NCBI RefSeq assembly: GCF_013778305.1
Contig: NZ_JACEIC010000002.1
Span: 1,181,708-1,245,707, forward strand
DNA from: Nocardioides agri
Lineage (GTDB): Bacteria; Actinomycetota; Actinomycetes; Propionibacteriales; Nocardioidaceae
Length of the DNA stretch: 64,000 bases
Reading direction: 5' to 3'
The translations under genes and the position numbers were made by a program. How positions within the stretch are numbered: position 1 is the first letter of the stretch; every line of letters begins with the position of its first letter. The notes below the pieces were generated by a model. It saw only the letters and a program-made list of their open reading frames with translations, did not search any database and was not told the origin of the DNA. Of the stretch, positions 7,245 to 35,525 are shown one piece after another.

Positions 7245-7260
7245 CAACGATGTAGCGTTG
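7245..7260. promoter_or_regulatory. Inverted repeat in the MFS/ArsR divergent promoter
   Basis: CAACG and CGTTG arms flank ATGTAG. A possible -10 box TAGCGT (7252-7257) lies only 9 nt before the ATG at 7267, so the regulator mRNA would be almost leaderless. The arrangement fits an autoregulated ArsR operator controlling both genes. The arms are only 5 bp, so chance is possible. Confidence 0.35.
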
Positions 7261-7266
7261 TGCTTC

Positions 7267-15921: not shown

Positions 15922-17919
<1,998 letters not shown>

Positions 17920-19152: not shown

Positions 19153-19200
19153 TTCTACGCATAGCGACCCCCTGCACGGCACAAATAGCGTGACGTGGGC

Positions 19201-19218
19201 GCCGGTCGTCCGACCGGC
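19201..19218. promoter_or_regulatory. 18-bp palindrome upstream of the sheath gene
   Basis: GCCGGTCG and CGACCGGC flank TC, 73 nt upstream of the sheath ATG and 48 nt after the LuxR stop. Its size matches LuxR-type operators. It may also act as a short terminator of the LuxR message. Confidence 0.5.
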
Positions 19219-19270
19219 ATCCGCGCGGAGAACGTCTGCGCGGCCGGATCATCGGGGCCGGCGGACAGGT

Positions 19271-19291
19271 CGACCCCCGCGGGGAGGGTCG
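19271..19291 (+). promoter_or_regulatory. Sheath ribosome binding site inside a hairpin
   Basis: CGACCC (19271-19276) can pair with GGGTCG (19286-19291), enclosing the GGGGAGGG Shine-Dalgarno that immediately precedes ATG 19292. An overlapping CCCCGCGGGG palindrome offers a second pairing. The structure could limit sheath translation until opened. Confidence 0.5.
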
Positions 19292-21331
19292 ATGCTGCAG
19301 TTGACGTATCCCGGGGTCTACACCCAGGAGAAGAGCTCGGGGGTCCGCACCATATCCGGTGCCAGCACCTCGGTGGCCCACTTCATCGGGCCGACGCGGA
19401 CCGGAATCGACAACCGGCCCGTGCGCTGCCTCAACTACGGGGACTTCGAGCGGCAGTTCGGAGGTCTGCACCCGCAGAGCTCGTTGTCCTACTCCGTCCT
19501 CCACTTCTTCGCGAACGGCGGGTCTGAGGCCTTCGTGACCAGACTCCCGGTCAGCGGGTCGGCGGCCGCGAGCTCGGTGGTCCCCGGCGCCGGTGCCGGC
19601 GCGACCGCGCTCACCGTGACCGCGTTGGGGACGGGCGCGACGGGCAATGGGATCTTCCTCGAGATCGACTCCTTCGACATCGGCGCCGATCCCTTCAGCG
19701 CGACCGCGGACACCAAGCGGTTCAACCTCACCGTCGTCGACTCCGTGACCGGGACCGTCGAGCGCTTCACCGACCTCACCACCGCCTCGGGCAACGCCAG
19801 GACCGCCGATTCCGTGGTCAACGACCCGGCGACGGGCTCCCGGCTGGTGAAGGTGGCGATGGCCCCGCGCGACGCGGCCGGCCCGGCCCCGACGGGCACG
19901 GTCTACAAGATCGGCGCCGGCCCGGCCACCGCCACCATCGCCGCCGATCTCAAGCTGGTGCTGACGATCACCCGGCGCCAGACGGACGGGACGGCGGACG
20001 CGGCCAACACCGTGACCGCCCTCGAGGTGGTCGCGCTGCCGAGCGGATCGCCGACACCGGCGAGCCCGCGTGAGCTCGTCGCCCGCGTGGTCGGCGCGAT
20101 CAACCAGACGCTGCGCGCCACACCCGCCGAGTTCGGGAAGCTGGCCGGCGCGGAGGTGCAGGGCGAGCTGTTCGAGGGCGGCACACAGTTCCGGTTGTCG
20201 CTGACCCGTCCGACCGGCCCCGCGGGCACGGCACGCGTCCACGACGCCACCGTCACCTTCGCCGGCCCCGCGAGCGGGCCATCCTTGAGCGCCGCCTACA
20301 ACATGGGGTCGGTCGCAACGCCGCACGTGTCCTCGGGCCCGTCGCGGATCCGGCTCGGCATGCCGATCGCCGGCCTGGTCACGACGGCCACCGCTGGTCT
20401 CGACGGCGCTGCGCACGGCCAGCCGTCCGACACGGTCTTCAAGAACGCCGTCACCGCCCTCGACGGGCCTGACCCGTTCTTCAACCTGCTGTGCCTCCCG
20501 GACCTCGTCCGGCCGTCGACGACCGATCCCGCAGTGGCGCAGCACAGCAACGTGGTGGCGGTGTACGCCGAGGCGGCGCGGGTGTGCGCCAAGAAGTTCG
20601 CCTTCCTCGTCGTCGACCCACCACCGCAAGTCAACGACGTGGGCTCTGCCGAGCAGTGGAAGACCATGCAACTGGGCTTCTCCTCCAGCCATGCAGGCGC
20701 CTGGTTCCCGCGCGTCCGGGTCGACGACCCGCTCCAGCCGGGCTCGATCATCAGCCACCCGCCTTCGGGGGCGATCGCTGGCGTGATCGCCCGGACCGAC
20801 GCCCAGGTCGGCGTGTGGCAGGCACCGGCCGGGACCGAAGCGGTTCTGGCAGGCGTCTACGGACCCGCGGTGTCGATCTCCGACCCGGAGCACGGCCTGC
20901 TCAACCCCGTCGGGCTCAACGTGATCCGGCAGTTCCCGATCTACCAGACCGTCGCGTTCGGCTCACGCACCGTGGACGGGTCCAACGCCCTCGGCAGCGA
21001 GTGGAAGTACATCCCGGTGCGGCGCACCGCCGACTACATCCTCCGGTCCCTGTCCGAGGCTCTCCGGTGGGCCGTGCACAAGCCCAACGGGGAAGAGCTC
21101 TGGTCGCAGCTGCGCCTCAACTGCACCTCGTTCATGCAGGGCCTCTACCGCCAGGGGGCTTTCAAGGGAACCTCGGCCCGGCAGGCCTACTTCGTGGCTT
21201 GCGATGCGAGCACCACCACCCAGGTGGACATCGACGCCGGCGTGGTCAACATCGCCATCGGCTTCGCGCCGCTCAAGCCGGCTGAGTTCGTCGTCATCAC
21301 GCTGCGCCAGATCGTGCAGCCGGCGGCCTGA
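19292..21331 (+). CDS. Contractile tail sheath protein (Afp2/Cis2-like)
   Basis: A 679-residue sheath subunit that forms the contracting outer tube. The N-terminus LQLTYPGVYTQEKSSGVRTI is the canonical sheath start, which exchanges strands with neighbouring subunits; GPTRTGIDNRPVRCLNYGDFERQFGG and LSYSVLHFFANGG follow. The C-terminal sheath domain covers about 560-679 (IPVRRTADYILRSLSEALRW, WSQLRLNCTSFMQGLYRQGAFKG, GFAPLKPAEFVVITLRQIV). Residues about 100-400 form variable surface domains. It is the only sheath gene in the cluster, unlike Afp with three. It has a strong ribosome binding site, within a hairpin. Confidence 0.95.
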   Translation: MLQLTYPGVYTQEKSSGVRTISGASTSVAHFIGPTRTGIDNRPVRCLNYGDFERQFGGLHPQSSLSYSVLHFFANGGSEAFVTRLPVSGSAAASSVVPGAGAGATALTVTALGTGATGNGIFLEIDSFDIGADPFSATADTKRFNLTVVDSVTGTVERFTDLTTASGNARTADSVVNDPATGSRLVKVAMAPRDAAGPAPTGTVYKIGAGPATATIAADLKLVLTITRRQTDGTADAANTVTALEVVALPSGSPTPASPRELVARVVGAINQTLRATPAEFGKLAGAEVQGELFEGGTQFRLSLTRPTGPAGTARVHDATVTFAGPASGPSLSAAYNMGSVATPHVSSGPSRIRLGMPIAGLVTTATAGLDGAAHGQPSDTVFKNAVTALDGPDPFFNLLCLPDLVRPSTTDPAVAQHSNVVAVYAEAARVCAKKFAFLVVDPPPQVNDVGSAEQWKTMQLGFSSSHAGAWFPRVRVDDPLQPGSIISHPPSGAIAGVIARTDAQVGVWQAPAGTEAVLAGVYGPAVSISDPEHGLLNPVGLNVIRQFPIYQTVAFGSRTVDGSNALGSEWKYIPVRRTADYILRSLSEALRWAVHKPNGEELWSQLRLNCTSFMQGLYRQGAFKGTSARQAYFVACDASTTTQVDIDAGVVNIAIGFAPLKPAEFVVITLRQIVQPAA

Positions 21332-21345
21332 GGAGGGCAGCAGAC

Positions 21346-21867
21346 ATGGCACAGTTCTCAGTCAACGCGCAGCGGTTGGACCCGTACAAGAACTTCAAGT
21401 TCCGCGTGAAGTGGGATGACCGCTACGTCGCCGGCGTGTCCAAGGTGTCGCTGCTCAAGCGCACGACCGAGGTCGTCAAGCACCGCTCCGGCGGGGACCC
21501 CTCGACGTCGTTCAAGTCGCCGGGCCGCACCGAGTACGACGCCATCACCCTCGAGGCCGGCGTCACCCAGGATCTGGAGTTCGTGAAGTGGGCCAACAAG
21601 GTCTGGAACTTCGGCTCTGGGCTCGGCGGCGAGGTGTCCCTCGCGGACTTCCGCAAGGACATCATCGTCGAGCTCCTCAACGAGGCGGGGCAGGTCGCCC
21701 TCTCCTACGCCGTCTTCCGGTGCTGGGTCTCGGAGTACCAGGCACTGCCTGACCTCGACGCCAACGCCAACGCGGTGGCCATCTCCAAGCTCAAGCTCGA
21801 GAACGAGGGCTGGGAGCGCGACTACGCCGTACTGGAGCCCGGCGAGCCCACCTTCGTCGAGCCCTGA
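21346..21867 (+). CDS. Tail tube protein (T4 gp19 / Afp1-like)
   Basis: A 173-residue inner-tube protein of the T4 gp19 family. FSVNAQRLDPYKNFKFRVKWDDRYVAGVSKVSLLKRTTEVVKHRSGGDPSTSFKSPGRTEYDAITLEAGVTQD is the characteristic tube opening, and a final VAISKLKLENEGWER segment gives the subunit-interface strands. It follows the sheath by 14 nt with GGAGG as its own ribosome binding site, as expected for the second most abundant subunit. Only one tube gene is present; Afp and PVC have separate Afp1 and Afp5, so one protein must fill both positions here. Confidence 0.95.
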   Translation: MAQFSVNAQRLDPYKNFKFRVKWDDRYVAGVSKVSLLKRTTEVVKHRSGGDPSTSFKSPGRTEYDAITLEAGVTQDLEFVKWANKVWNFGSGLGGEVSLADFRKDIIVELLNEAGQVALSYAVFRCWVSEYQALPDLDANANAVAISKLKLENEGWERDYAVLEPGEPTFVEP

Positions 21868-22607: not shown

Positions 22608-23446
22608 CCGAGCACCCCGGCTATCTCGACGCGCTCGCCCGGGCCGCCGGCTGGGAGCGCCCGGCGGACGACCTGGCCGACGCCGCGCGACCGCGACCCC
22701 GGTCCCGCTTCGAGCCCGACGGGCCGCCGGACCTGGCCGGGGACGACGTCGCCTGGGCCGAGACCGCAGTCGAGGCCGACGCGTCGGGTCGGGCCGCCCA
22801 GCCGACACCTCCGAACACGCGACAGGCCGACTCGGAGCAGCCGAGCGAGGACGTGCCTCCGGTCGACCGCCCCGAGCTGCCGGCCACCACGGCCGAGCCG
22901 GCCGCCCCGCCCGTGGCGGCAGCTCCGCAGCGGGTCGCCGCGCAGCCCGCGACCGAGGAGGTGGCCGCACGCGAGCCCGCCCCGGCGCCGACGTACGTCG
23001 AACCGCCGAAGCCTTCCGGGCTGCCCACCGCACCAGTCCCGGACACCCGCGACCGCGCGCCCGCAGAGCCGGCCACGCCGTACCCCCAACCCGAGCCCGA
23101 GCCCGCCCGGGAGCCACGAGAGCCTCACCCGACGGCGACGGAAGCTGTGCCCGTGGACTGGTCCGACCGGGCCTCGCCGCACGAGCCTGGTCCGGCTCCC
23201 GAGCTCGCCCACGAAGCTCGTCTGGTCGCGCGGCCTGAGCAGGTGGTCGCCACCGAGGAGTCCGCGCCCGCCGAGCCCGAGGCCGACGGCGGTCCGACCG
23301 TCGTCGTCGAGATCGGTCGCATCGAGGTCAGACTGGCATCCGAGCCGGGCGCCGCCCCGCGGCCCGCAGCCATCCGCCCGCCGCCGGGCCCGTCGCTCGC
23401 CGACTACCTGCGCGACCGGTCGGCCGGCGAAGGACGACCGGCATGA
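22604..23446 (+). CDS. Proline-rich contractile-cluster protein, Afp6-position
   Basis: A 280-residue protein with short ordered ends joined by a long, disordered Pro/Ala/Glu linker (about 40-235). N-terminus: EHPGYLDALARAAGWERP. C-terminus: VVVEIGRIEVRLASEPG followed by PPPGPSLADYLRDRSAG, a pattern (IGRIEVR then a Pro-rich run and SLADYL) I know from small proteins in many eCIS clusters; no function is assigned. The GTG start overlaps the previous stop by 4 nt. It might link the cap or wedge parts or act as an adaptor. It should not be taken as a tape measure, as it lacks long helices. Confidence 0.7.
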   Translation: MTEHPGYLDALARAAGWERPADDLADAARPRPRSRFEPDGPPDLAGDDVAWAETAVEADASGRAAQPTPPNTRQADSEQPSEDVPPVDRPELPATTAEPAAPPVAAAPQRVAAQPATEEVAAREPAPAPTYVEPPKPSGLPTAPVPDTRDRAPAEPATPYPQPEPEPAREPREPHPTATEAVPVDWSDRASPHEPGPAPELAHEARLVARPEQVVATEESAPAEPEADGGPTVVVEIGRIEVRLASEPGAAPRPAAIRPPPGPSLADYLRDRSAGEGRPA

Positions 23447-24174
23447 GCGCCCGCTTCGCGATCCCGGCGACGACCTTCGTGCTGCGCGGGATCGTCCAGG
23501 AGCGGCTCAACCTGTCCTACCCGGCGACGCTGACGGCACCTGTGGTGTCGGTGGAGCCCCCGCCGCGCCCGTCGCCGACCAACGGCAATCCCGCGGGTGG
23601 CGGCGCCGCGCAGCCGGAGCCCGCCCGGCTCCACCTCTTCTGCCACCACGTCGCGCTCAACCCGGCGTGGCGCAACATGTACGAACCCCACGTCGACTCC
23701 GCCGGCAAGCGCATCGGTCCGTCCCCGCTGGCCGTCGACCTCCACTACCTCCTGGCCGCCACCGGACTCGACCTCGAGCGCGAGGTGCTCCTCGGTCTCG
23801 GGATCGCCGCGCTCAACCGGTTCGGCGTCGTGCCACGACCCAAGATCGCCGCGATACTGGGCGCTGTCGCGGTGCCGGGGACGCCGGCCAGGATCACCGA
23901 CCTGATCCCCGACGAGCAGCTCCAGGATCCGCAGGAGCAGCCTCAGCAGATCACGATCAGCCAGCAACCGGTCGACCTGGACATGTCGACGCGGATCTGG
24001 TCGGCGTTCCAGTCACCACTGCGGCCCTCGGCGTACTTCCTGGTCACCACCGTGTTCCTCGAGGTCGACGAGACCCTGCCCGCGACGAAGGACGTGGACG
24101 ACCTGAAGATCGGCGTCCGGCCCGACGTCAGCGGCGCGGATGCGGACCCGGCCGACGTGGTGACGACGTCATGA
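23443..24174 (+). CDS. DUF4255 cap protein (Afp16/Pvc16-like)
   Basis: A 243-residue protein of the DUF4255 family, which terminates the tube distal end in Afp and PVC particles. Family marks are VLRGIVQERLNLSYP at the N-terminus, HLFCHHVALNPAWRN, PLAVDLHYLLAATG and EVLLGLGIAALNRFGVV, then the acidic C-terminal strand pair LDMSTRIWSAFQSPLRPSAYFLVTTVFLEVD. A short Pro-rich insert at about 30-55 breaks the first strand pair. It overlaps both neighbours by 4 nt. Confidence 0.92.
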   Translation: MSARFAIPATTFVLRGIVQERLNLSYPATLTAPVVSVEPPPRPSPTNGNPAGGGAAQPEPARLHLFCHHVALNPAWRNMYEPHVDSAGKRIGPSPLAVDLHYLLAATGLDLEREVLLGLGIAALNRFGVVPRPKIAAILGAVAVPGTPARITDLIPDEQLQDPQEQPQQITISQQPVDLDMSTRIWSAFQSPLRPSAYFLVTTVFLEVDETLPATKDVDDLKIGVRPDVSGADADPADVVTTS

Positions 24175-26147
24175 CCACGACAGACCGACGCTCCTGCCTC
24201 GAGGTCAGCCGCGAGGCAGCCCTGGTCGCCCTGGCCGGCGCGCCCGACGCGTTCGCGGACTGGTGGCGCTGGTGGGAGGCGCAGGACGGCGACGCCTCGG
24301 TACGCCGCCTGGTCGCCGGCTTCGCCCTGTCCCGCCCCGAGGCAGAGTTGGTCGCGCTGCTGCTGGCCGCCGCCGCGAGCGAGCCGGTCGCCCGGGCGGT
24401 GTCCACGGCCGTCGACACCGAAGGTGGCGTCGGTGGGGCGGGGTTGCCGCTGTGGCTGGCCTGCCGCGTGGTGGCCGGGCTCGACGCCTCCGCCCTGGCG
24501 CGGTCTGCGCCGTTGCTGCGCCTCGGTCTGGTGGAGATCACCGAGGGGGCGCCCCGGATCGAGACCCGGATGCGCCTGGTCGACGCGCTGGTCGACCGGC
24601 TGCTCGGCGACCCCGTGCTCGACCCGGTGCTGACCGCGCGCATGCAGCTGCTGCCGGATGCGCCGCCGGGGATGCGCGAGCCCCAGCAGGGAGACCAGGA
24701 CCTCGCGGCCGTCTCCACGGCGAGCCGACGCCTGGCCGAGGAGCTGTCCACTGCGCTCGGCACCCGAGGCCCTCTCGGCGTGCCGCCCCTGGTCCTGGCC
24801 CGTCGGTCCGGGACCGCGGAGCTCGGTCGCGCCCTCCGGACACTCGGGTTGCTGCCGTGGTCGCTGGCGGCCACCTCCCTGCCCGACGACCCCGACGAGA
24901 TCGAGTCCCTGGCGCTGCGCTGGAGCCGGGAGGCGGCTCTCGACGCGATCGCGCTCGTTGTCCACGACGACGCGGTCGGGTCACGTCCTGCGCTCGGCAG
25001 CTTCCTGGACCGGGTGCTCGGGCACGTCGTCCTCACCGCACCCCAGGCGCCAGCGGAGCTGTCCCGCGGTGTCCATGTCCTGACCGAGCGGCCGGACGGC
25101 CCCGACGCGATGCTGCTGCGGTGGGCGCGGGAGCTCGGACCGGAGCGGACCCGTCGGGTCGGTCCGGCGCTCGGTCCGGTGGCAGCCCACTTCCGGCTCG
25201 ACGAGCCGACGGTGGCCCGCACCGCGGCCACCGCCGGCCCGGCCATCGACGCGGCCGGAGACGACACCGAGATGGCGGCGGCGGCGCTCTGGCACGTCGC
25301 CGCGCGCGCCGTCACCCCCGTTCCCCGGCCCGGCATCCGGATCGTCGAGCCGGCGTACACGTGGGAGGACCTGGTCCTCCAGCCCGAGACCGAGGCCACG
25401 CTCCGTCGGGTCGAGGCACACGTGCGGTTCGCCGCCCGGGTCCTCGACGACTGGGGCTTCGCGGCGCGGCTCGGGGGGCGCGAGGGCTGGCGCGGACGCG
25501 GCGTTGCGGCACTCTTCGCAGGGCCGTCGGGCACCGGAAAGACGATGGCGGCGGAGGTGATCGCGGCTTCGCTCGACCTGCGGGTGATGTCGATCGACCT
25601 GAGCCAGGTGATCTCGAAGTTCGTGGGCGAGACCTCCAAGAACATCGCCGCGGCCTTCGACGAGGCCGAGCGCTCGGGCGCCGTGATGGTGTGGAACGAG
25701 GGCGACGCGGTGTGGGGCACCCGCGGCGGCGTGGGGAACGCCGTCGACCGGCACGTCAACGCCGAGGTCGGCGACCTCCTCCAGCGCATCGAGGAGTTCT
25801 CCGGGTTCACGCTCGTCACCACCAACCTGCGGCAGGCGATCGACCCGGCCTTCCTGCGCCGGTTCCGGTTCGTCGTCGACTTCCCGGTCCCGTCCGAGGC
25901 CGAGCGCCTGCGGCTGTGGCGCTCCGCCTTCCCCGCGGCCACCCCGGTCGAGCCGCTCGAGTGGGAGCGGCTGGCCGGCCTGCCGCTGACGGGCGGCTCG
26001 ATCCGCAACGTCGCCCTCGGCGCGGCCTTCCTCGCCGCGTCGGCCGGGACGTCGGTGACCCGCACGATGATCGAGGCCGAGCTCGGCCAGGAGATGCGCA
26101 AGCAGGACCTGCCGATGCCGCGACTGACCTGGTCGGAACCGTCGTGA
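24171..26147 (+). CDS. AAA+ ATPase (Afp15/Cis15-like) with altered Walker B
   Basis: A 658-residue AAA+ ATPase of the type encoded in nearly all eCIS clusters, thought to help assembly. The N-terminal 380 residues are alpha-helical and contain no recognised motif. Walker A is GPSGTGKT at 451-458. Walker B reads VMVWNEGDAVW: the Asp of the usual DEADAL is Asn509 while Glu510 remains. Sensor 1 (VTTNLRQAIDPAFLRRF) and the arginine-finger region are intact. The N change could slow Mg-dependent hydrolysis. It overlaps both neighbours by 4 nt. Confidence 0.93.
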   Translation: MTTTDRRSCLEVSREAALVALAGAPDAFADWWRWWEAQDGDASVRRLVAGFALSRPEAELVALLLAAAASEPVARAVSTAVDTEGGVGGAGLPLWLACRVVAGLDASALARSAPLLRLGLVEITEGAPRIETRMRLVDALVDRLLGDPVLDPVLTARMQLLPDAPPGMREPQQGDQDLAAVSTASRRLAEELSTALGTRGPLGVPPLVLARRSGTAELGRALRTLGLLPWSLAATSLPDDPDEIESLALRWSREAALDAIALVVHDDAVGSRPALGSFLDRVLGHVVLTAPQAPAELSRGVHVLTERPDGPDAMLLRWARELGPERTRRVGPALGPVAAHFRLDEPTVARTAATAGPAIDAAGDDTEMAAAALWHVAARAVTPVPRPGIRIVEPAYTWEDLVLQPETEATLRRVEAHVRFAARVLDDWGFAARLGGREGWRGRGVAALFAGPSGTGKTMAAEVIAASLDLRVMSIDLSQVISKFVGETSKNIAAAFDEAERSGAVMVWNEGDAVWGTRGGVGNAVDRHVNAEVGDLLQRIEEFSGFTLVTTNLRQAIDPAFLRRFRFVVDFPVPSEAERLRLWRSAFPAATPVEPLEWERLAGLPLTGGSIRNVALGAAFLAASAGTSVTRTMIEAELGQEMRKQDLPMPRLTWSEPS

Positions 26148-26368
26148 CCGCCCCGCGCGAGCTGCGCGTCCAGGTGGGCACCCTGCGGGTGGTGGGTGGC
26201 TCGACCATCGAGGCCCGGCGCATCGCCGACGCCCTGCCGGTTGCGCTCGAACGCGCGCTCGCCGGCCGACGGGCCACCGCGCCCGGACCCGCGGACCTCG
26301 TGGCGGACGCCGTCGCCAGCCGGGTCCGCCGCGAGTCGAGCGACGCCTGGGCGGAGGTGGGCCCGTGA
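26144..26368 (+). CDS. Small conserved contractile-cluster protein
   Basis: A 74-residue protein, GTG start, that overlaps the ATPase stop and the DUF4157 start by 4 nt each. Visible features are an N-terminal strand pair (ELRVQVGTLRVVG) and an amphipathic helix (ARRIADALPVALERALAGR) followed by a short C-terminal helix. The VQVGTLRVVG strand resembles the VEIGRIEVR strand of the Afp6-position protein. It is too short to assign; a chaperone or adaptor for the protein encoded next is possible. Confidence 0.65.
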   Translation: MTAPRELRVQVGTLRVVGGSTIEARRIADALPVALERALAGRRATAPGPADLVADAVASRVRRESSDAWAEVGP

Positions 26369-29300
26369 GGCAGCTGACCCAGGCGGTGCGCCCGGCCCCG
26401 GTGACCGCGAGGCCGGTGCCGCGTGCCACGGCGCGCCCGGTCTCGAAGGCGGCGGCTCCGGCCGCTCCGGCCTTCGTGACCCCACCGGTCGCCTCCGTCC
26501 TCGCGGAGGAGGGTCGCCCCCTGCCCGCGCCGGTGCGCTCGGAGATGGAGACGGCGCTCGGCCACGACCTCGGCTCGGTCCGCGTGCACGACGGCGCCGG
26601 CTCCGCGCGCGCAGCAGAGGAGGCCGACGCTCGCGCGTTCACGGTCGGCGACCACGTCGGCTTCGGCAGTGCCGGCTTCCACCCCGAGACGCCGGAGGGG
26701 CGCGGTCTCCTCGCCCACGAGCTGGTCCACGTCCTCCAGGGCGGCGCCTCCGACCACGCGCGCGCCGAGGCGGAGGCGGCCTCGGCCGTCGCGAGCCTCG
26801 CCCGCGGCGAGCGGCCCACGTTCACCCGTCACCGGGGGCGGGCCACCCTGCACCGCGCCCCCAACGACGCACCGGCGCCGCCATCCGTGCCGGCGCCGCC
26901 GCCCGCGTCGGCCCCGGGTGCGGCCGCCGCGCCCGCGATCACGCCCACGCAGCCCGCGCCTGCCGGGATCCCGGCGGTGCGCCTGCCGACGGGCCTGAAC
27001 GTCGTCACCGACACCCCTCCGGGCATCGGCACCACCGAGCTGGTCGTCCAGGTCCCCCAGTTCTCGCTGCCCCTGGAGAAGGGCGCCGGGCCGTGGGTCC
27101 AGCAGGCCTACAACGATGCCGGGAACGGCGGCCGGCTGGTGTTCAGTCCTCTCATCGAGGGCGGCTCGGTCGCGGCGTACAAGGAGGGCACGGAGGACTA
27201 CAAGTCCGTCTGGCTCAACAAGTTCGGGTTCACCAGCACCGCCGCGATGGCCAACGCCTTCACCTCCTCGACCGACCCCGCCGTCCGTGCCAGCCTGCAG
27301 GACCCGGCGGTCCGCGACACCGTCCACAAGCTGCGGACCAACCTGAGGGACGCCCACTGCGACATCGACCACATCGTCGAGAAGCAGATCGGCGGGACGT
27401 CGATCCCGTCCAACCTGCAGCTGCTCACCAGCAGCAAGAATCAAGCCTCCGGACGGCAGACCTACCAGTCGCTCGTCGCGCTCGTGAACGCGATCCGCGC
27501 ATCCGACATGCGGGGCCCCAACGTGCGGAACCTGCAGATCCGCCTCCGTGCCGCCACCGTCCCGCAGGGCACCAGCGATCCCAGCTTCGTCATCGAGGAC
27601 CACCTGCGCGCCGGGCGGGTTGTGGGCCGCGCCGACGTGCAGGCGCAGGCCGCTGGCAAGCCGGTCAGCCTCCGGGCCGGCGGCATGTCGGAGACCGCGC
27701 AGCTGCGCGACACCGGCGACACGACCCTCGACAGCATGAACCGGCGACTGGTCCCAGCGATGCGACTGACCACCTACCGACGAGGTGCCCAAGGCGCCAA
27801 CAGCGCCCAGGACACCATCCTGGCCGAGCTCGACAGCCGGGCGATGCGGGCGAGCGGCTCGGGAGCGGGAGTGCGGCTCGTCGCCCGGCGCCCCGCGGCG
27901 TCGGCCGGTGACGGTCCGCCCGCCGCCACCCAGCCGCCTCAGGGCGCGGCGCCGGAGCCGACCGCAGCGCCGGCGGGCGAGACCCGCGAGCTGCGCCTGG
28001 AGGACCGCAACCAGCGGCTGAACTTCTTCTATCCCTACCTGAGCCCGGGCGAGCTCACCCAGCTCTCGCTCGATGAGCAGGGCAGCCTCAGCGGCACCGG
28101 CTTCATCCGACCGACGATCCCGATCTTCGAGCGGCTCAACGTCACCTTCAGCCGCGACACCCTCGCCCTGGTCGCCCCGCTCGACAAGGACAAGCTGCGA
28201 TCGCCGTTCCCGGCCGGCTTCCGCTTCACCGGCGGCGAGCTCGCGTTGCAGCTCTCCCCCGAGCTCATCCCGCGCGGCAACCTGACGTTCTCGGTCGGCC
28301 CCGCCGCGCAACCGCTGATCAACGGGGCGCTCTCGGTGACGATGACCAGCGGCGTCCTGGTCGCCAGCGGCGACCTCACCCCTGCGCGGCCGATCCCCGG
28401 CATCAGCTCGGCCTCCGGCAATGTCACCTGGCGTTCGGACACCGGCTGGCAGGGGGCCATCCGGGCCACCTCGTCCTCGATCCCCAACACCACGGCCAAC
28501 CTCGTGCTCGGGTTCCGCACCGAGGGCCAGCGGTTCGCGCCGTACGCGGAGGGAGGGCTGGTCAGCCGGGTGCGCAACGCCGAGCTCGGGCTCAACGCCT
28601 CGTGGCACGGCGGTCCCGTCAGCTATCGCGGCCACGCCGTGGTCGAGCGGCCCCTGCCCATGGTGGATCGGATCCGTCTCGACGGCAGCTACGGCGAGCG
28701 CGGGCTGCACCTGCACGGCAACGCGCCGATCCGCTGGCGCAACATCGACTCGAGCATCGACCTGAACTACGACCGGCGCCCGGACGAGGCCGAGGGCCGC
28801 TTCTCGGGAACCGCCACCTTCGCGATCCGCACGCCGAAGGCCGAGGGCAGCGCGACGCTGACCTACGACGACCAGGGCCGGTTCACCGGCCGCGGGATGG
28901 TCGCCTATCAGGTGACCCCCAACCTGCGACCCCAGCTCGGCATCGAGCTGACCGCCGACCGCCGCGTGAAGCTGACCGGCGAGGTGCGGCTCAACGACAT
29001 CGAGCTGACGCGGCGGTGGCCCTCGGCCGAGGGCGGCCGCATCTCGATCATCAGCGGCCTCGGGGTGAAGTTCAGCATCCCTACGCCGGTGCCGGCTGTC
29101 ACCGCGTACGGCGAGATCCGGGGCTCGCTCGGGCTCGGGTACGGCGTCGGGCCGGTGATGCTGCGCGGTGTCATCTTCACCGGCGAGCTCTACCCGTTCG
29201 AGGACGACCCGCAGGTCCGGGCCCGGCTCCGCGGCAGCTTCGTCGTCCCGGCCTACGCCGAGCTGTACGGCACGTTCGGCGCCTACATCGGGCTCGAGGT

Positions 29301-29706
29301 CGCGCTGGGTGCGGTGGGTGCCAAGGGCGGCGTCGAGATCACCCCCCGGCTCCGGATCAGTGCCGAGGGCGGGATCGCCGTGGACGCGGACTACGACTCG
29401 GGCGGCTTCAGCTTCGCCGCCGAGGCCTACGCGTCCGGGCAGCTGACCGCGGCGGCGACGGTCAACCTGGTGGCCGACCTGTACGCGGCGTACGGCCTCT
29501 TCTCGCACCGGTGGACGTACCAGGCGGCCTCGGTCAGCGCTCAGATCGGCCCGACCGTCCGCCTCACGATCGGCCGGATCGCGATGTCGAAGACCGGCGA
29601 GATGACCTGGCCCAGCCTGTCCCAGGTCCGGATGGAGCCACAGAACATCGACCCGCTCGCGGTGGTCCGCGACATGCTGCGCCGAGGGGAGGCCCGAGAG
29701 ACATGA
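26365..29706 (+). CDS. Large DUF4157 (eCIS core) protein with HNH-like nuclease motif; putative cargo
   Basis: An 1113-residue protein. Residues 45-125 are a DUF4157 domain, the eCIS core domain: SEMETALGHDLGSVRVHDG and LLAHELVHVLQGG, with HExxH-type HELVH at 118-122. A Pro/Ala linker (165-205) follows. Residues 230-380 hold an HNH-like motif: CDIDHIVEKQIGG, SNLQLLTSSKN, with Asp335-His336 and Asn350, Lys358-Asn359 as candidate catalytic and metal residues. Residues 540-1113 are a long beta-rich region of Gly-rich alternating strands, like the C-terminal domain of known large DUF4157 proteins. Nothing suggests a signal peptide. A cytoplasmic cargo or toxin of the particle is the best reading; structural roles remain possible. 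Confidence 0.85.
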   Translation: MRQLTQAVRPAPVTARPVPRATARPVSKAAAPAAPAFVTPPVASVLAEEGRPLPAPVRSEMETALGHDLGSVRVHDGAGSARAAEEADARAFTVGDHVGFGSAGFHPETPEGRGLLAHELVHVLQGGASDHARAEAEAASAVASLARGERPTFTRHRGRATLHRAPNDAPAPPSVPAPPPASAPGAAAAPAITPTQPAPAGIPAVRLPTGLNVVTDTPPGIGTTELVVQVPQFSLPLEKGAGPWVQQAYNDAGNGGRLVFSPLIEGGSVAAYKEGTEDYKSVWLNKFGFTSTAAMANAFTSSTDPAVRASLQDPAVRDTVHKLRTNLRDAHCDIDHIVEKQIGGTSIPSNLQLLTSSKNQASGRQTYQSLVALVNAIRASDMRGPNVRNLQIRLRAATVPQGTSDPSFVIEDHLRAGRVVGRADVQAQAAGKPVSLRAGGMSETAQLRDTGDTTLDSMNRRLVPAMRLTTYRRGAQGANSAQDTILAELDSRAMRASGSGAGVRLVARRPAASAGDGPPAATQPPQGAAPEPTAAPAGETRELRLEDRNQRLNFFYPYLSPGELTQLSLDEQGSLSGTGFIRPTIPIFERLNVTFSRDTLALVAPLDKDKLRSPFPAGFRFTGGELALQLSPELIPRGNLTFSVGPAAQPLINGALSVTMTSGVLVASGDLTPARPIPGISSASGNVTWRSDTGWQGAIRATSSSIPNTTANLVLGFRTEGQRFAPYAEGGLVSRVRNAELGLNASWHGGPVSYRGHAVVERPLPMVDRIRLDGSYGERGLHLHGNAPIRWRNIDSSIDLNYDRRPDEAEGRFSGTATFAIRTPKAEGSATLTYDDQGRFTGRGMVAYQVTPNLRPQLGIELTADRRVKLTGEVRLNDIELTRRWPSAEGGRISIISGLGVKFSIPTPVPAVTAYGEIRGSLGLGYGVGPVMLRGVIFTGELYPFEDDPQVRARLRGSFVVPAYAELYGTFGAYIGLEVALGAVGAKGGVEITPRLRISAEGGIAVDADYDSGGFSFAAEAYASGQLTAAATVNLVADLYAAYGLFSHRWTYQAASVSAQIGPTVRLTIGRIAMSKTGEMTWPSLSQVRMEPQNIDPLAVVRDMLRRGEARET

Positions 29707-30359
29707 CCACGTTCCCGCGATCTCCGCGCACGCTGCGCGGCGGCTTCATCGTGATGGACGCCGACGGCCTCGCCGTGCGACGGACCGTGCCGTTCCAGTA
29801 CAACCCCGACACGCTCACCAGGTCGCTGGCACCCCGCGGCGCAACGGCCGACGCCGGTGACCGGCTCGAGCCGACCCGCCTGGTCGGGCCACCCGCGGAG
29901 ACGATGAAGCTCGAGATCGCGCTCGATGCCACCGACCGGCTCGAGAAGCCGGCCCAGAACGCCGCGACCGCGGCCGAGGGCATCGCCGCCGACCTCGCCG
30001 AGCTGGAGACGATGGTGTCACCGGCCGTGGCCGACCTGGAGGCCGCGGAGGCCCTGACCAGCCGGGGGACCCTGGAGATCCTGCCGCTGCCCTCGCCGCT
30101 GCTGCTCCTGGTGCTCGGCGCCAATCGCGTGGTCCCGGTGCGAGTCACCGAGTTCGCGATCACCGAGGAGGCCTTCGACACCCGGCTCAACCCCGTGCTG
30201 GCCCGGGTCAGCCTGGGCCTGCGGGTGATGACCACGGACGACCTGCCGTTCGGTTCCAAGGGCGCTGCGCTCTACCTCACCGCGGCTCGGCGACGCGAAC
30301 GACTCGCGGCCCGCCGCGGCGCCGGTGTCCAGGCCCTCGGACTGAGGGGGGCGCCATGA
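29703..30359 (+). CDS. CIS baseplate protein, Afp7 N-terminal-like
   Basis: A 218-residue baseplate protein. It begins with FIVMDADGLAVRRTVPFQYNPDTLTRSLAPRG, a motif shared by the first half of Afp7-like proteins that bind the tube-hub junction; a central amphipathic stretch and a strand (LLVLGANRVVPVRVTEFAITEEAFDTRLNP) follow. It ends in an Arg-rich tail. The LysM-like half is a separate gene next to it, so the Afp7 protein is split in two here. Overlaps neighbours by 4 nt each. Confidence 0.85.
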   Translation: MTTFPRSPRTLRGGFIVMDADGLAVRRTVPFQYNPDTLTRSLAPRGATADAGDRLEPTRLVGPPAETMKLEIALDATDRLEKPAQNAATAAEGIAADLAELETMVSPAVADLEAAEALTSRGTLEILPLPSPLLLLVLGANRVVPVRVTEFAITEEAFDTRLNPVLARVSLGLRVMTTDDLPFGSKGAALYLTAARRRERLAARRGAGVQALGLRGAP

Positions 30360-30676
30360 GCACGCCGTTCCCTCCGTCGAGCCGCTACGCGCAGGTTCCG
30401 GTACTGACCCGCACCCTGGCCGACGGGACCGTGGTCCGCTACCTCGCCCGGAGGGTGCTGCCGCCCGTCGAGCGCTTCCAGCCTCTGGAGATGGTCCGTC
30501 TCGACGGCACCGAGCGCCCCGACACCCTGGCTGCAGAGTCCTATGGCGACCCGCTGCTGTGGTGGCGGATCGTGGACGCCAGCGGCGAGGCAGACCCGCG
30601 CGACCTCACCGGGATCGAGGGCCGGCTGGTCCTGATCCCCCTGCCCCTGGAGATCACCGACGATGGCCGCGCTTAG
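30356..30676 (+). CDS. LysM-like / gpX-type baseplate protein
   Basis: A 106-residue protein corresponding to the C-terminal LysM half of Afp7 and to the tail protein X type. The motif AESYGDPLLWWRIVDASGEADPRDLTGIEGRLVLIPLP has the YGDPxLWWxIxDxNG core and a terminal strand. It probably binds the hub and contacts the tube. It overlaps the upstream gene by 4 nt and the downstream hub gene by 14 nt, the only longer overlap in the array. Confidence 0.85.
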   Translation: MSTPFPPSSRYAQVPVLTRTLADGTVVRYLARRVLPPVERFQPLEMVRLDGTERPDTLAAESYGDPLLWWRIVDASGEADPRDLTGIEGRLVLIPLPLEITDDGRA

Positions 30677-31781
30677 CTCCGTGACGCTGTCGGTCCAGAT
30701 CGGGCCGATCGCAGTCTCCGCCGCACCGACCGCGGTGGTCGACGCGCTCGACGGCGCCACGGTGACGCACGCGGTCGGAGCACGGTCCGGGTTCCAGCTC
30801 AGCCTGACCTACTCCAAGACCTCCCCGATCGCGCGGACCCTGCTGCCCTCGGGCTTCTTCGACCCGATGGTGCGGGTGATGCTGATCGCCACCGTGCGCG
30901 GCGTCTCGACCGTGCTGGCCGACGGCCCGATCAAGCGGCAGGACGTCACCGCGACGACCCGCCCCGGCCAGTACCGGCTGGTGCTCACCGGCGAGGACGT
31001 CTCCGGCTACATGGACCTCGTGGACCTCACCGGTCTGCCCTACCCGGCCATGCCGCCCTTCGCCCGGGTCGCCCTGATGCTCGCCAAGTACGCCGCATTC
31101 GGCGTCGTGCCCGTGACGATCCCCGCTCCGTTCGCGGCGACCGAGAACCCCGTCGAGGGCTACCACCACCAGCAGGGCACCGACCTGGAGTACGCGACCA
31201 AGCTCGCCCGCGAGGCCGGCTACGACTTCCACGTCTCCCCCGGGCCGGTACCCGGGGCGAACACGGCGTACTGGGGCCCGCCGATCCGGGTCGGCCTGGT
31301 GCAGCCGGCGCTGAGCATCGACCTCGACCACGCCTCGAACATCGACAGCATGAGCTTCTCGGCCGACGGCAATGCGGCCGTCCTGCCCTACGGCTTCGTC
31401 AAGGTCGCCGGCTTCTCGGTGCCGGTCCCGGTGCCGGACATCGGCGTCCTCAAGCCGCCGCTGTCGGCGCGCCCGCTCGTGCCCGCCAAGACCAAGCAGC
31501 TGGAGACCGAACGCATGAAGCTCCCCGACGTCCTGATGGGCCTGCTCGCCGGCCGTGGCGGCACCGACCCCGTGACCGCGACCGGCTCCATGGATCTCAC
31601 CCGCTACGGCCGGCCGCTGTCGGCGCGCTCGCTGGTCGGCGTCCGCGGCGCCGGCAACGCCCACGACGGTGTGTGGTTCGTCAGGTCGGTCACGCACACC
31701 CTCGGTCGGGGCAAGTGGAAGCAGAACTTCCAGCTCTCCCGTGACGGCCTCGGCTCGCTCGTCTCGACGGTGACGCCATGA
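30663..31781 (+). CDS. Hub protein (gpD / gp27-like, Afp8 N-terminal half)
   Basis: A 372-residue tail hub protein of the gpD/gp27 type. ATVTHAVGARSGFQLSLTYSKTSP, DGPIKRQDVTATTRPGQYRLVLTGEDVSGYMDL, and GTDLEYATKLAREAGYDF are the repeating late-control domains; the last segment ends ARSLVGVRGAGNAHDGVWFVRSVTHTLGRGKWKQNFQLSRDGLGS, typical of the C-terminal jelly-roll of gpD. It forms the trimer that links tube and spike. In Afp this is fused to the OB-fold spike; here the spike is a separate gene with a 4-nt overlap. Confidence 0.9.
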   Translation: MAALSSVTLSVQIGPIAVSAAPTAVVDALDGATVTHAVGARSGFQLSLTYSKTSPIARTLLPSGFFDPMVRVMLIATVRGVSTVLADGPIKRQDVTATTRPGQYRLVLTGEDVSGYMDLVDLTGLPYPAMPPFARVALMLAKYAAFGVVPVTIPAPFAATENPVEGYHHQQGTDLEYATKLAREAGYDFHVSPGPVPGANTAYWGPPIRVGLVQPALSIDLDHASNIDSMSFSADGNAAVLPYGFVKVAGFSVPVPVPDIGVLKPPLSARPLVPAKTKQLETERMKLPDVLMGLLAGRGGTDPVTATGSMDLTRYGRPLSARSLVGVRGAGNAHDGVWFVRSVTHTLGRGKWKQNFQLSRDGLGSLVSTVTP

Positions 31782-32293
31782 CCGCGGGACCGGCCTTCTT
31801 CGGGAAGTACCGCGCGACGGTGCTCACCACGACCGATCCGATGGTCCAGGGGCGGATCATGGTCCAGCTGGCCGACCGCTACGGGCCGTTCCCGTCCACC
31901 TGGGCGCTGCCGGCCGTCCCGTTCGCCGGCAAGGGCATGAGCGGGGTCGTGGCCCTGCCCCAGGTCGGCAGCATGGTCTGGGTCGAGTTCGAGGCCGGCG
32001 ACCCGGACTACCCGATCTGGAGCGGCGGCTTCTGGCCGGACGCCGCCGGTTTCCCCGTCCTCGCCCTGGCGGGAGCCACCCCGGTGGCGCCCAACATCCA
32101 CTTCCAGACGACCACTGGGGTCTCGGTGACCTTGTCGGACCTGCCCGCCAAGCAGGTGCAGGTGATGACGCCGACCGGGGCCATGCTGGTGATCGGGGCC
32201 AGCGGGATCACGATCAGCAACGGTCAGGGCGCCTCGATCGTCATGTCCGGACCGTCCGTGATCATCAACGGCGGCGCGCTGGTCGTGACCTGA
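31778..32293 (+). CDS. Spike protein (gpV / gp5 OB-fold-like, Afp8 C-terminal half)
   Basis: A 171-residue spike base. Residues 1-90 are an OB fold of the phage baseplate V/gp5 type (GKYRATVLTTTDPMVQGRIMVQLADRYGP, VVALPQVGSMVWVEFEAGDPDYPIWSGGFW); the C-terminal 80 residues are short beta repeats (VQVMTPTGAMLVIGASGITISNGQGASIVMSGPSVIINGG), consistent with a triple-stranded beta-prism needle. The needle is short, so the tip protein (PAAR-like, downstream) probably caps it directly. Confidence 0.92.
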   Translation: MTAGPAFFGKYRATVLTTTDPMVQGRIMVQLADRYGPFPSTWALPAVPFAGKGMSGVVALPQVGSMVWVEFEAGDPDYPIWSGGFWPDAAGFPVLALAGATPVAPNIHFQTTTGVSVTLSDLPAKQVQVMTPTGAMLVIGASGITISNGQGASIVMSGPSVIINGGALVVT

Positions 32294-32305: not shown

Positions 32306-32650
32306 ATGCCCGGACCTGTCCTCCACGCCAGCGCCACCGTCAGCTGCCCGCACGGTGCGCCGCTCGCCATCGTGCCGTCAGCGCCCCGGGTGACGGTCAC
32401 GGGACTGCCGGTGGCGGTGCTCACCGACCAGGGACCGGTCGCCGGGTGCCCGTTCACCGTCCCGGTGGGGGCCGCGACCAAGCCGCAGCCCTGCGTCAGC
32501 ACGCGCTGGATGCTCGGCGCCACGCGCGTGACGTCCGGCGGGCAGCCGGTGCTGATCAACCCGGTCGGTGCTCTCTGCCTCTCGGCCGAGCAGATCCCCG
32601 GCGGTCCCCCGACGGTCTCCTCCAGCCAGACCCGCGTGGTGGCGACATGA
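32306..32650 (+). CDS. PAAR-like spike tip protein (Afp10-like)
   Basis: A 114-residue protein with the pattern of PAAR-like tips: a beta-rich domain with SCPHGAPL at the start and repeated strand/Pro-Gly turns (APRVTVTGLPVAVL, GPVAGCPFTVPVG). Four Cys and a His (residues about 15-17, 48, 62) could bind the tip metal ion. A C-terminal Ser/Thr-rich tail of 25 residues has no homologue known to me. It starts 12 nt after the spike stop, one of the few non-overlapping junctions, and overlaps gp25 by 4 nt. Confidence 0.82.
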   Translation: MPGPVLHASATVSCPHGAPLAIVPSAPRVTVTGLPVAVLTDQGPVAGCPFTVPVGAATKPQPCVSTRWMLGATRVTSGGQPVLINPVGALCLSAEQIPGGPPTVSSSQTRVVAT

Positions 32651-33021
32651 GCCGACTCTCGTTCCCCTTCGGTCCTACCCCGCTCGGACGCTCGGCGGTG
32701 GTCGACTACGGCAGCGACGCCCATGTCCGGCAGCTCCTGGAGCTGCTGATCTTCACGGTGCCGGGCGAGCGCGTGATGCGTCCCGAGCTCGGGAGCCCGG
32801 TGCGGCAGATGGTCTTCGGGCCGCTGGGCGGCCCGACGTCGCTCGCTCTGGAGGCTGCGCTCCAGGCCACGGTGCAGCAGTGGCTCGGCCATGTGCTGAC
32901 CCTCGTCGACCTGACCGTCACGGTGTTCGACGAGGACGCGGCGCTCGAGGTGTCGGTCACCTACGAGACCGTCCGCACCCGATCCACCGGCCAGGTGCGA
33001 GTCCGCAAGGACCTCACATGA
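32647..33021 (+). CDS. gp25/GPW-like baseplate wedge protein (Afp9-like)
   Basis: A 124-residue gp25-family wedge protein: SFPFGPTPLGRSAVVDYGSDAHVRQLLELLIFTVPGERVMRPELGSPVRQMVF is the canonical gp25 signature with the GERVMRPELG motif. It joins the wedge to the first sheath ring and starts contraction. Start ATG 32647 overlaps the PAAR-like stop by 4 nt and its stop overlaps the next start by 4 nt. Confidence 0.93.
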   Translation: MSRLSFPFGPTPLGRSAVVDYGSDAHVRQLLELLIFTVPGERVMRPELGSPVRQMVFGPLGGPTSLALEAALQATVQQWLGHVLTLVDLTVTVFDEDAALEVSVTYETVRTRSTGQVRVRKDLT

Positions 33022-35525
33022 CCGGCCGCTATGTCTGCTGCGACGAGCGCCGCCGGGCCTTGCTGGCCGATCCCGCCGCCCCGGCCGGCATCTCCGGCAT
33101 CGACTACCTGGAGGTCCAGCAGGGCAACCCGGTCTCGAACCCGACCGTGATCACGATCGTGCTGGTCAAGCCGCTCACGCTGCCGGCGGCCCAGCTCACG
33201 AGGGACAACATCCGGATCACCGGCGGCGTGCGCTTCCCCGCCCCACGGGTCGACACCGTGCAGGCCCTTCCCGGGGCGGGCACCGTGGCGTCGTACCAGG
33301 TGACGATCCCGGGCGGCCAGCAGACCGACTTCTCGGCGTACCGACTCGAGGTGGTCGCCGGGCCGGGACAGAGCAACCCGCCCGCGTTCCTGGACCCGCA
33401 CCTGTCGTCGGTCGAGTTCAGCTTCAAGGTCGACTGCGGCAGCGAGCTCGACTGTGCCGAGCCGCCTCGACCGACCGGGGCCGGGCCGGTGGACGACCCC
33501 GAGTTCGACTACCTCGCGCGCGACTGGGAGGGCTTCCGGCGGCTGATGCTGGACCGGCTGGCGGTGCTGGTGCCGGGATTCCGCGAGGACGACGCCGTGG
33601 ATCTGACCACGACCGTCATCGAGGCCCTGGCCTACCGGCTGGACCAGCAGAGCTATCGCCTCGACTGGACGACGACCGAGGCGTTCCTCGACACGGCCCG
33701 CAGTCGCACGTCCCTGGTGCGGCACGCCCGCCTGGTCGACTACGTGCCGGCCGAGGGCGCCAGCGCACGCACCTTCGTGAGCCTGGGCTTCCGGGCGTCA
33801 GCAGCGTTCCCGGACGGTCAGCTCCTGCCCGCGCACACTCCGGTCCTGCCGCGGCAGGCCGATCTGCCGACGGTGGTGACCGCGCCCGAGTACGCCACCT
33901 GGCTGCGCGCCACCCCTGACCTGCCGGTCGCGTTCGAGACGCTCGCGCCGATCGGCCTCTGGCAGTGGCGGTCCCGGATCGCCCTCCACACGTGGGGGGA
34001 CGAGGAGTGCTCTGTGCCCCGTGGGGCGATCGGCCTCACGCTGGTGGACGACAGCGGGGGCGGTCCCGGCGCGCTCCGGCCGGGCGACCTGCTCCTGGTC
34101 GAGGAGATCGCCTCCCCCGAGACCGGTGAGGGGGCAGACGCGGACCCGCAGCACCGGTTCGTCGTCCGGCTCACCTCCGCGATCCCCACACACGATGTCC
34201 TCTTCCCCGCACTCTCGCTGGTCGAGGTGGGCTGGGACGAGGCCGACGCGCTGCCCTTCGACCTGGTCGTCTCGCGCCGCGTGCAGGGCCCGAGCGGGCC
34301 GCCGGTCCGGGTCGTCTGCGGGGCGGTCCGCGGCAACGTCGTCCTGGCCGAGCACGGAGTCACCCTCCCCCCGGTGACCTCGCTGGGCCTCACGCCCGCG
34401 AGCACGGCCGACCTGTCGCCGAGACTGGACCCGCCCGCGCCCGAGCCCGGCAGCCGCTGGGAGCCACGCGTCCGGGCGTCGGGCCCGCTGGCCCGGGTCT
34501 CGCCCCACGGCCCTGCCGACCTGCCTCGGCTCACCGCGACCGTCCTGCTGGCGGCGACCGGAGGGCCACCGGCGATCCGCCTGCGTGACGCCTTCTCCAC
34601 CTGGACGGCCCGCACCGACCTGCTGGCGACCGGCGCGTTCGGCCGCGACTTCGTGGTCGAGACCGACGCCACCGGCGCGCCGACCCTCCGGTTCGGCGAC
34701 GGGATCCACGGGCTCGGTCCGACGGTGCGGGCCCCACTCGGGGTGGAGGGCCGGTTCGGGTGCGGCACCGGCGGCAACCTGGGCGCCGGCGCGCTCGGCC
34801 ACGTCGTCGTACCGGCCGCCCTCGGGCAGCTGCCCGTGCAGGACGTCACCAACCCCGTGCCCGGGCGCGGAGGTGCGGCGCCCGAGAGCGCTGCCGTCGT
34901 GCGGGCGGTCGCCCCGGAGGCCTTCCGTCACCCGCAGCGGGCCGTCACGGCCGACGACTACGCGGTCGCGGCGCGCGAGCACCCGGACGTGTCGAACGCG
35001 ATGGCGGTCGCACGGTGGACCGGCGCCTGGCAGACGGTCGTCGTCCACGTCGACCGAGCAGGTGGACGCCCGGTCGACGCGGCGTTCCGGACGTCGCTGA
35101 TGGCCCACCTCGAGGCCTACCGCCTGGCCGGGTTCGACGTGGCGGTGAAGGCGGCGAAGCTGGTCCCGCTCGACGTGGAGCTCTCGATCTGTGCGCTCCC
35201 GGGTGAGATCCGCGGCGTGGTCGGCCAGCGGGTCCGGGCGGCTCTCACACCGGTGGCTCCCGACGGCGGCTTCGGCTTCTTCCACCCCGACCGGTTCACC
35301 TTCGGCACACCGCTCTACCTGTCCGCCCTGATCGCCGCGGTGATGGCGGTGCCCGGAGTCCAGAGCGTCACGCCGGTCGTCTTCCAACGGTTCGCCCGGC
35401 TCTCGCAGGGCGAGCTCGGACTCGGCGTCATCAAGCCGGACGCCACCGAAGTGCTCGAGCTGCGGGATGACCCGAACTTCCCCGAGCGCGGGCGGCTGCG
35501 GATCACGATGGGAGGTGGCCGATGA
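33018..35525 (+). CDS. Baseplate J-like wedge protein (Afp11-like)
   Basis: An 835-residue putative baseplate assembly protein. The gpJ-like C-terminal core is residues about 630-820: AVTADDYAVAAREHPDVSNAMAVARW, QTVVVHVDRAGGRPVDAAFRTSLMAHLEAYRLAGFDVAVKAAKLVPLDVELSICALPGEIRG. The N-terminal half starts with a short Cys-rich leader (MTGRYVCCDERRR) and a fold specific to Afp11-type proteins. Arms of this kind hold the tail fibres. The 4-nt overlaps on both sides suggest that it is made in equal amounts with its partner. Confidence 0.88.
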   Translation: MTGRYVCCDERRRALLADPAAPAGISGIDYLEVQQGNPVSNPTVITIVLVKPLTLPAAQLTRDNIRITGGVRFPAPRVDTVQALPGAGTVASYQVTIPGGQQTDFSAYRLEVVAGPGQSNPPAFLDPHLSSVEFSFKVDCGSELDCAEPPRPTGAGPVDDPEFDYLARDWEGFRRLMLDRLAVLVPGFREDDAVDLTTTVIEALAYRLDQQSYRLDWTTTEAFLDTARSRTSLVRHARLVDYVPAEGASARTFVSLGFRASAAFPDGQLLPAHTPVLPRQADLPTVVTAPEYATWLRATPDLPVAFETLAPIGLWQWRSRIALHTWGDEECSVPRGAIGLTLVDDSGGGPGALRPGDLLLVEEIASPETGEGADADPQHRFVVRLTSAIPTHDVLFPALSLVEVGWDEADALPFDLVVSRRVQGPSGPPVRVVCGAVRGNVVLAEHGVTLPPVTSLGLTPASTADLSPRLDPPAPEPGSRWEPRVRASGPLARVSPHGPADLPRLTATVLLAATGGPPAIRLRDAFSTWTARTDLLATGAFGRDFVVETDATGAPTLRFGDGIHGLGPTVRAPLGVEGRFGCGTGGNLGAGALGHVVVPAALGQLPVQDVTNPVPGRGGAAPESAAVVRAVAPEAFRHPQRAVTADDYAVAAREHPDVSNAMAVARWTGAWQTVVVHVDRAGGRPVDAAFRTSLMAHLEAYRLAGFDVAVKAAKLVPLDVELSICALPGEIRGVVGQRVRAALTPVAPDGGFGFFHPDRFTFGTPLYLSALIAAVMAVPGVQSVTPVVFQRFARLSQGELGLGVIKPDATEVLELRDDPNFPERGRLRITMGGGR

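Follow-up and report, generated by a model that had tools for sequence, protein, structure and literature searches.

The window analysed here is a stretch of 64,000 nucleotides from Nocardioides agri (contig NZ_JACEIC010000002.1, positions 1,181,708 to 1,245,707), and we focused on one gene in it, at 26365-29706 on the forward strand. This gene is embedded in the operon of an extracellular contractile injection system (eCIS), with the sheath, tube, Pvc16, AAA, spike, gp25-like and two Baseplate_J genes around it (Table 1). Its product, here referred to as the DUF4157-HNH-beta protein, joins a DUF4157 domain (residues 52-127), an HNH nuclease motif (332-363) and a beta-rich part (541-1107) in one chain, as an earlier note on this DNA had proposed. 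The frame opens with GTG at 26365 and runs without interruption to a stop codon ending at 29706, giving 1113 residues, and its GC content at third codon positions (0.94) matches that of the other genes around. Long open reading frames (ORFs) also occur in its reverse frames, which is expected because the GC content is 69-76%, and the relatives described below support the forward frame. The earlier note had placed the gene between the ATPase and the baseplate genes. The mid-operon position holds, but a 74-codon gene follows the ATPase and overlaps the start of the gene by four bases, and the next gene downstream encodes a tube-initiator-like protein, not a baseplate protein proper.

Table 1. 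Features of the eCIS operon and of the DUF4157-HNH-beta protein (positions in the window).
Feature	Position	Strand	Basis or remark
LuxR-type regulator gene, head of eCIS operon	18235-19152		
Contractile sheath	19106..21331	+	Phage_sheath_1C E 7.3e-13
Tail tube (gp19)	21346..21867	+	PF06841 E 2.3e-43
Pvc16-like terminator	23443..24174	+	PF14065 E 2.3e-26
AAA ATPase	24171..26147	+	PF00004 E 1.4e-20
74-codon small gene, between ATPase and putative cargo	26144..26368	+	frame chosen by homology
DUF4157-HNH-beta protein (P0001), 1113 aa	26365..29706	+	open frame; 125 relatives
N-terminal leader, residues 1-49	26365..26511	+	poorly conserved; residues 1-37 pLDDT <50
eCIS_core/DUF4157 domain, residues 52-127	26518..26745	+	HExxHxxQ at 118-125; Glu135 just behind
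Pro/Ala-rich linker, about residues 170-205	26872..26979	+	residues 181-204 pLDDT <50
Nuclease module, residues 206-512	26980..27900	+	model pLDDT 92.9, pTM 0.86
HNH (HNN-type) motif, residues 332-363	27358..27453	+	D335 H336 E339 N350 N359 G363
Amphipathic beta-meander module, residues 541-1107	27985..29685	+	model and strand-face analyses
Four longest predicted strands 951-979, 984-1010, 1015-1041, 1046-1074	29215..29586	+	first three strongly one-sided, fourth not
Tube-initiator-like protein	29703..30359	+	CIS_tube E 0.013, below cut-off
gp53-like baseplate protein	30356..30676	+	PF11246 E 0.0086, below cut-off
Hub-like tail protein	30663..31781	+	PHROG 52 E 1.5e-5
Spike/injector OB-domain protein	31778..32293	+	Phage_base_V E 1.7e-17
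gp25-like baseplate wedge	32647..33021	+	PHROG 5026 E 3.6e-10
Baseplate_J protein 1	33018..35525	+	start inferred; PF04865 E 1.8e-8 on longer ORF
Baseplate_J protein 2	35522..38110	+	PF04865 E 2.6e-17
pLDDT, predicted local distance difference test; pTM, predicted template modelling score.

The segment CDIDHIV...SNLQLL...SKN, in which the earlier note had seen an HNH pattern, lies at residues 332-359 and is more than a chance match, judging from profiles, model and conservation. Profiles from three libraries cover it: Pfam HNH at residues 330-357 (E 0.025; 15.2 bits, below the curated cut-off of 21.4), the NCBIfam IscB profile at 329-373 (E 0.0027; 16.9 bits, far under the equivalog cut-off of 175) and, in PHROGs, which has no curated cut-off, HNH endonuclease at 332-378 (E 1.9e-4) and endonuclease VII at 332-402 (E 0.0029). 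When the window protein and 40 relatives were scanned at E <=0.1, all 41 sequences matched eCIS_core, 21 matched Pfam HNH, 22 IscB and 2 HNH_5. The model of residues 206-512 contains a predicted ββα arrangement with strands at 332-336 and 351-355 and a helix at 356-377; an absence of this fold at 330-360, which the earlier note had named as speaking against a nuclease, was not seen. Asn occupies the third of the catalytic positions (HNN type), and the nuclease core, at 332-377 of 1113, is internal and not a C-terminal tip.

Conservation is concentrated in the same place. We aligned the window protein with 68 relatives (leaving out P0005, P0031, P0041, P0052, P0074, P0075 and P0077 onward), and D335, H336, E339, N350 and N359 were unchanged in all 69 sequences. 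Mean identity to the window protein was 71% at residues 326-380, 65% at 206-275, 63% at 901-1080, 51% in the DUF4157 domain and 24% in the leader. In a second alignment of 75 rows, which includes divergent members (20-92% identity to the window's module) and was counted over module columns since its first row is a fragment, the sole invariant columns in the 307-residue module were W283, D335, H336, E339, G344, N350, N359 and G363. The 41 full-length rows had 26 invariant columns, among them the eight of the module, H118 and H122, and eleven of the beta-module. By analogy with Cas9, we take D335, H336 and N359 to be metal and base positions and N350 to be structural. We consider an HNH fold with an intact centre highly likely.

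Other candidates for the module were rejected. A phmmer match of residues 197-272 to chain 7aef_q (E 0.23) would have pointed to a spike OB-fold; the chain bears the deposited name Phosphoserine phosphatase SerB and is an AlgoCIS spike chain. We rejected this fold because the confident model has a helix at 243-254 and because the match did not recur with the family profile at E up to 5. Profile matches to Tagatose aldolase, LetB and RMD5 (E 0.22-3.2) were not significant, and two matches in a viral fold library, with E <0.001 but template modelling scores (TM) <0.1, were uninformative.

The N-terminal domain is a clear member of DUF4157, with a Pfam eCIS_core match at residues 52-127 (E 6.2e-26; 90.8 bits against a cut-off of 22), the HExxHxxQ-E zinc-peptidase signature and a location in an eCIS operon. 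Its HELVH sequence lies at 118-122, where the earlier note had put it, and H118, E119, H122, Q125 and E135 are invariant in the 69 aligned sequences. The linker that follows is a candidate release site, at which cleavage may occur.

The long beta-rich C-terminus was likewise borne out, since the whole-protein model predicts 31 strands between residues 539 and 1074, with pLDDT mostly 80-94 to about residue 880 and 65-78 from there to 1080. Most of these predicted strands are one-sided in a shuffle test that covered all 31. A count of face composition left out 8 of the 31 strands, those with weak alternation, and set the faces by hydrophobicity, and is therefore biased upward. In three of the four longest strands the hydrophobic face held a single charged residue among 2967 cells. 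The fourth of these strands (1046-1074) did not rise above the shuffles, 498 of 2000 of which reached its value, and its two faces had charged residues in 157 of 966 and 154 of 1035 cells. Comparing halves of the module with hhalign gave no internal repeats (probability <=17% in 4 comparisons). A simple outer-membrane pore is not favoured, because in three long strands the hydrophobic face extends over all 27-29 residues, which seems to exceed what a membrane needs. Some membrane role of the beta-module is conceivable, with the odds somewhat against it.

We then searched for relatives with three queries: the whole protein (259 proteins, 120 of them listed), the beta-part by itself (87 matches) and the nuclease module by itself (91 matches). 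Each search scored only about 8000 candidates sharing most words, so that rarer fusions may be missed. The matches of the two partial searches, together with P0003-P0084 of the whole-protein search, make up 125 relatives. DUF4157 domain, HNH motif, nuclease module and beta-module occur together in 116 of them, which are also the members with DUF4157 (114 with HExxHxxQ). Six (P0031, P0041, P0074, P0075, P0126 and P0137) have the motif and both modules but no DUF4157 domain. The remaining three (P0124, P0128 and P0134) begin behind the HNH motif and are the only beta-modules without it, leaving 122 with the motif. None of the 125 carries the nuclease module with a different body. The other 38 listed whole-protein matches (P0085-P0122) have no HNH motif and cover 7-17% of the query. 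Within the sampled relatives, therefore, nuclease and beta-module go together and the nuclease is not swapped; no variable toxin sits at the extreme C-terminus as in polymorphic toxins. P0041 (Agromyces) and P0137 (Rhizobium), whose contigs measure 1.5 Mb and 470 kb, start at the equivalents of residues 213 and 211, at the module border; their missing DUF4157 domain may reflect a gene split in two or a misplaced start site. The Asn at the third position, the internal place of the nuclease and its pairing with the beta-module were all missed in the wording of the earlier note.

The named relatives fall into two sets, Actinomycetota (Micromonospora, Streptomyces, Kitasatospora, Kineococcus, Cellulomonas, Actinomycetospora and Agromyces) and Alphaproteobacteria (Pseudogemmobacter, Maritimibacter, Rubrimonas, Sphingomonas, Sphingopyxis, Novosphingobium and Rhizobium). 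In the class of the source organism, the nuclease module was present in 2 of 296 genomes, one being the source genome; no further genome of the same genus has it among the 14 listed. The source genome has one DUF4157 match, and one relative operon is plasmid-borne (L043). This scattered distribution suggests horizontal spread.

The position of the gene is also shared. Five loci have the same order as the window, as far as each reaches: sheath, tube, Pvc16, AAA, small gene, DUF4157-HNH-beta, tube initiator, gp53-like, hub, spike, gp25 and two J proteins. They come from Cellulomonas humilata (L002), Maritimibacter (L004), Sphingomonas and Sphingomonadales metagenome-assembled genomes (MAGs; L005 and L006) and the Streptomyces plasmid NZ_CP108040.1 (L043). 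At lower identity, 8 of 36 other loci (L007-L042) show the succession AAA, DUF4157, tube initiator: L007, L008, L011, L014, L017, L024, L025 and L026, with the slot genes of L017 and L026 not cleanly resolved by ORF choice. No nuclease-module match was found in these eight at E 1e-5. Ten slot proteins from five of them were scanned; all ten matched eCIS_core, and the extra domains were one TGL and one OmpA over the cut-offs and one M35-like and one DUF4347 under them, with nothing notable in the rest. Since other DUF4157 proteins occupy this place in related particles, we regard the position as a cargo slot, of which the DUF4157-HNH-beta protein is, on comparison of these loci, one fixed occupant. 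As syntenic particles do without this protein, it is not a universal structural part. In the Ardenticatenaceae MAG (L011, 5438-15476), four DUF4157 genes lie in the slot as a cargo array.

Small genes of 66-101 codons with a loose common pattern, partly recognised by eye, follow the AAA ATPase and precede the first DUF4157 gene in the window, L002, L004, L005, L006, L043, L008, L024 and L026, that is, before HNH and non-HNH cargo alike. That of the window (26144-26368) is matched by BLAST in L002, L006 and L043 and by eye only in L004 and L005, and has no Pfam or PHROGs match. P0079 has a stretch resembling it at its own N-terminus. We dropped a role in immunity to the nuclease because, judged by eye, small genes of this kind also stand before non-HNH cargo in L008, L024 and L026; the gene possibly encodes a loading adaptor.

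Several observations concern the surroundings. No immunity gene for the nuclease was found, phage records gave no match, and PADLOC gave none at E 0.01. Behind the operon, a gene of 177 codons at 43200-43733 matches DUF4231 (E 1.1e-5, over the cut-off); the annotation of the Streptomyces plasmid shows none after its operon. Relatives of DUF4231 are small membrane (SLATT-like) proteins, and on this basis the gene at 43200-43733 could be an accessory effector or a lysis gene. The genes at 7258-8244 and 15922-17919 are close neighbours in two same-genus genomes (L054 and L055) and 7.7 kb apart in the window, where the operon begins just past the second. The region is rearranged and was probably inserted.

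Taken together, these data point to a dedicated DNA-cleaving cargo of the surrounding contractile injection particle, which we consider likely (probability about 0.72). HNH profiles, the ββα model, conservation and a slot with varied DUF4157 proteins support this prediction, which the earlier note had also made. That the protein is cargo, which would be packed in the particle, is very likely. Sequence and model show the domain order, the conserved sites, the ββα fold, the operon slot and the one-sided strands, whereas docking, self-cleavage, membrane passage and DNA cleavage are inferred, as follows. First, the leader and the DUF4157 domain would dock the protein onto the growing particle at its spike/tube-initiator end, and the neighbouring AAA ATPase and small gene would help to load it. 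Docking by DUF4157 would fit the co-elution of Sle2 with the tube initiator SlpT2 (PMC13277306) and the enrichment of Tme with the spike and tube initiator (PMC11126660). Second, the intact HExxHxxQ-E site would cut the Pro/Ala linker, so that the cargo is probably released by its own peptidase and the nuclease and beta-module are freed during or after ejection. Third, the beta-module, with its hydrophobic and charged faces, may shield or carry the nuclease at or across a membrane. Finally, the HNH centre (D335, H336 and N359, with N350 structural) would cut DNA in the target cell.

A bolder form of this reading holds that the cargo brings its own membrane-crossing device. The HNH DNase would be permanently joined to a meander of some 30 strands folding into a hydrophobic-faced beta-tube; the particle would only breach the envelope and the cargo complete the delivery of the nuclease, and the DNase-beta-tube unit would define a particle lineage across monoderm and diderm bacteria. 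We consider this form somewhat unlikely.

Some points weigh against a DNA-cleaving cargo. The toxicity of Cgo1 is independent of its metalloprotease motifs (PMC8894135), contrary to the self-cleavage step. Architecture and operon position are fixed across Actinomycetota and Alphaproteobacteria, no separate tape-measure gene was recognised by Pfam among the operon genes scanned (a missing match being weak evidence), and the Pfam HNH score is sub-threshold.

Among the alternatives, the best surviving is a special case compatible with the cargo reading, in which the protein acts on the producer's kin, as Tme does in Streptomyces davawensis. The nuclease would nick genomic DNA and the beta-module make a passage, leading to extracellular DNA release or programmed lysis that aids development. 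The slot and the DUF4157-plus-nuclease plan are as in Tme (PMC11126660), and the failure to find an immunity gene would also fit; however, body and nuclease type are unlike Tme. Relatives in Sphingomonadales and Maritimibacter offer no parallel for a developmental role, as these groups are not known to sporulate. We rate this case as unlikely.

A second alternative is that the protein is first of all a particle part, tape-measure-like or baseplate-organising, whose HNH domain trims or guards DNA in the producer during assembly or lysis. The fixed architecture and position and the lack of a recognised tape-measure gene would suit it, but the same particle type takes other DUF4157 proteins in the slot and so does not need this one, which also tells against the purely structural part that the earlier note had considered. 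Moreover, a body rich in beta-strands does not resemble a coiled-coil tape measure. Nor does the protein share the transmembrane helices and coiled coils of Tme-like tape-measure effectors: the model is beta-rich behind residue 539, no 19-residue window has a mean hydropathy of 1.6 (maximum 1.35), and no tape-measure profile of Pfam or PHROGs matched the protein. This alternative is quite improbable. Least probable is a degenerate fold for DNA or protein binding without catalysis, which could draw on the sub-threshold Pfam score but conflicts with the invariance, across the 75 rows, of the catalytic-position residues, W283 and seven motif positions being all that is invariant in the module.

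The protein bears on two general questions about these particles, namely how their cargo enters the cytoplasm once the target is punctured and which function DUF4157 has. Since one design, comprising a putative docking peptidase, a nuclease and an amphipathic beta-module, occupies a fixed slot in two phyla, both can be put to the test using one protein and its point mutants.

Compared with known systems, the closest plan is that of Tme (BN159_7576; PMC11126660), the DUF4157 endonuclease characterised in 2024. It has predicted transmembrane helices, coiled coils, a basic segment and a C-terminal EndA-like nuclease, whereas the HNH motif of the window protein is of another type and lies mid-protein with a beta-meander behind. 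PVC-metallopeptidase, the same domain as DUF4157 (PMC8213781), was described by Zhang et al. (2012, PMC3482391) in toxins that have HNH/EndoVII tips and, as in our protein, an N-terminal HExxHxxQ-E domain, and self-cleavage was proposed for it. These authors listed with it the HNH-fold nucleases Tox-HNH (DHxxE clade), Tox-HHH and Tox-LHH, and a notable proportion of such toxins have no immunity genes. D335-H336-x-x-E339 fits the DHxxE of the Tox-HNH-CIDE clade in 122 of the 125 relatives, a pattern that does not by itself mean membership. In these toxins, however, the toxin is a variable C-terminal tip, while the window protein has an internal nuclease and a conserved beta-module of about 550 residues. 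The AlgoCIS cargo proteins Cgo1 and Cgo2, shown to fill the tube lumen, share the disordered N-terminus and DUF4157 but have different C-terminal domains, with no HNH described in the available text (PMC8894135). The HNH domains of IscB and HNH-type Cascade resemble ours in profile and fold at the DH..N..N core, and no RuvC, guide-RNA or Cascade parts were matched in Pfam and NCBIfam scans of the protein. We found no published description of the DUF4157-HNH-beta architecture in a search that had most subscription journals and preprints outside it. DUF4157-nuclease fusions are already known (Zhang et al. 2012; Tme 2024), and what is new is that an HNN-type nuclease lies internally, is tied to the beta-module and keeps a fixed slot: a second plan beside the helical Tme (PMC11126660), in which the slot before the tube initiator holds a nuclease joined to a possible membrane module.

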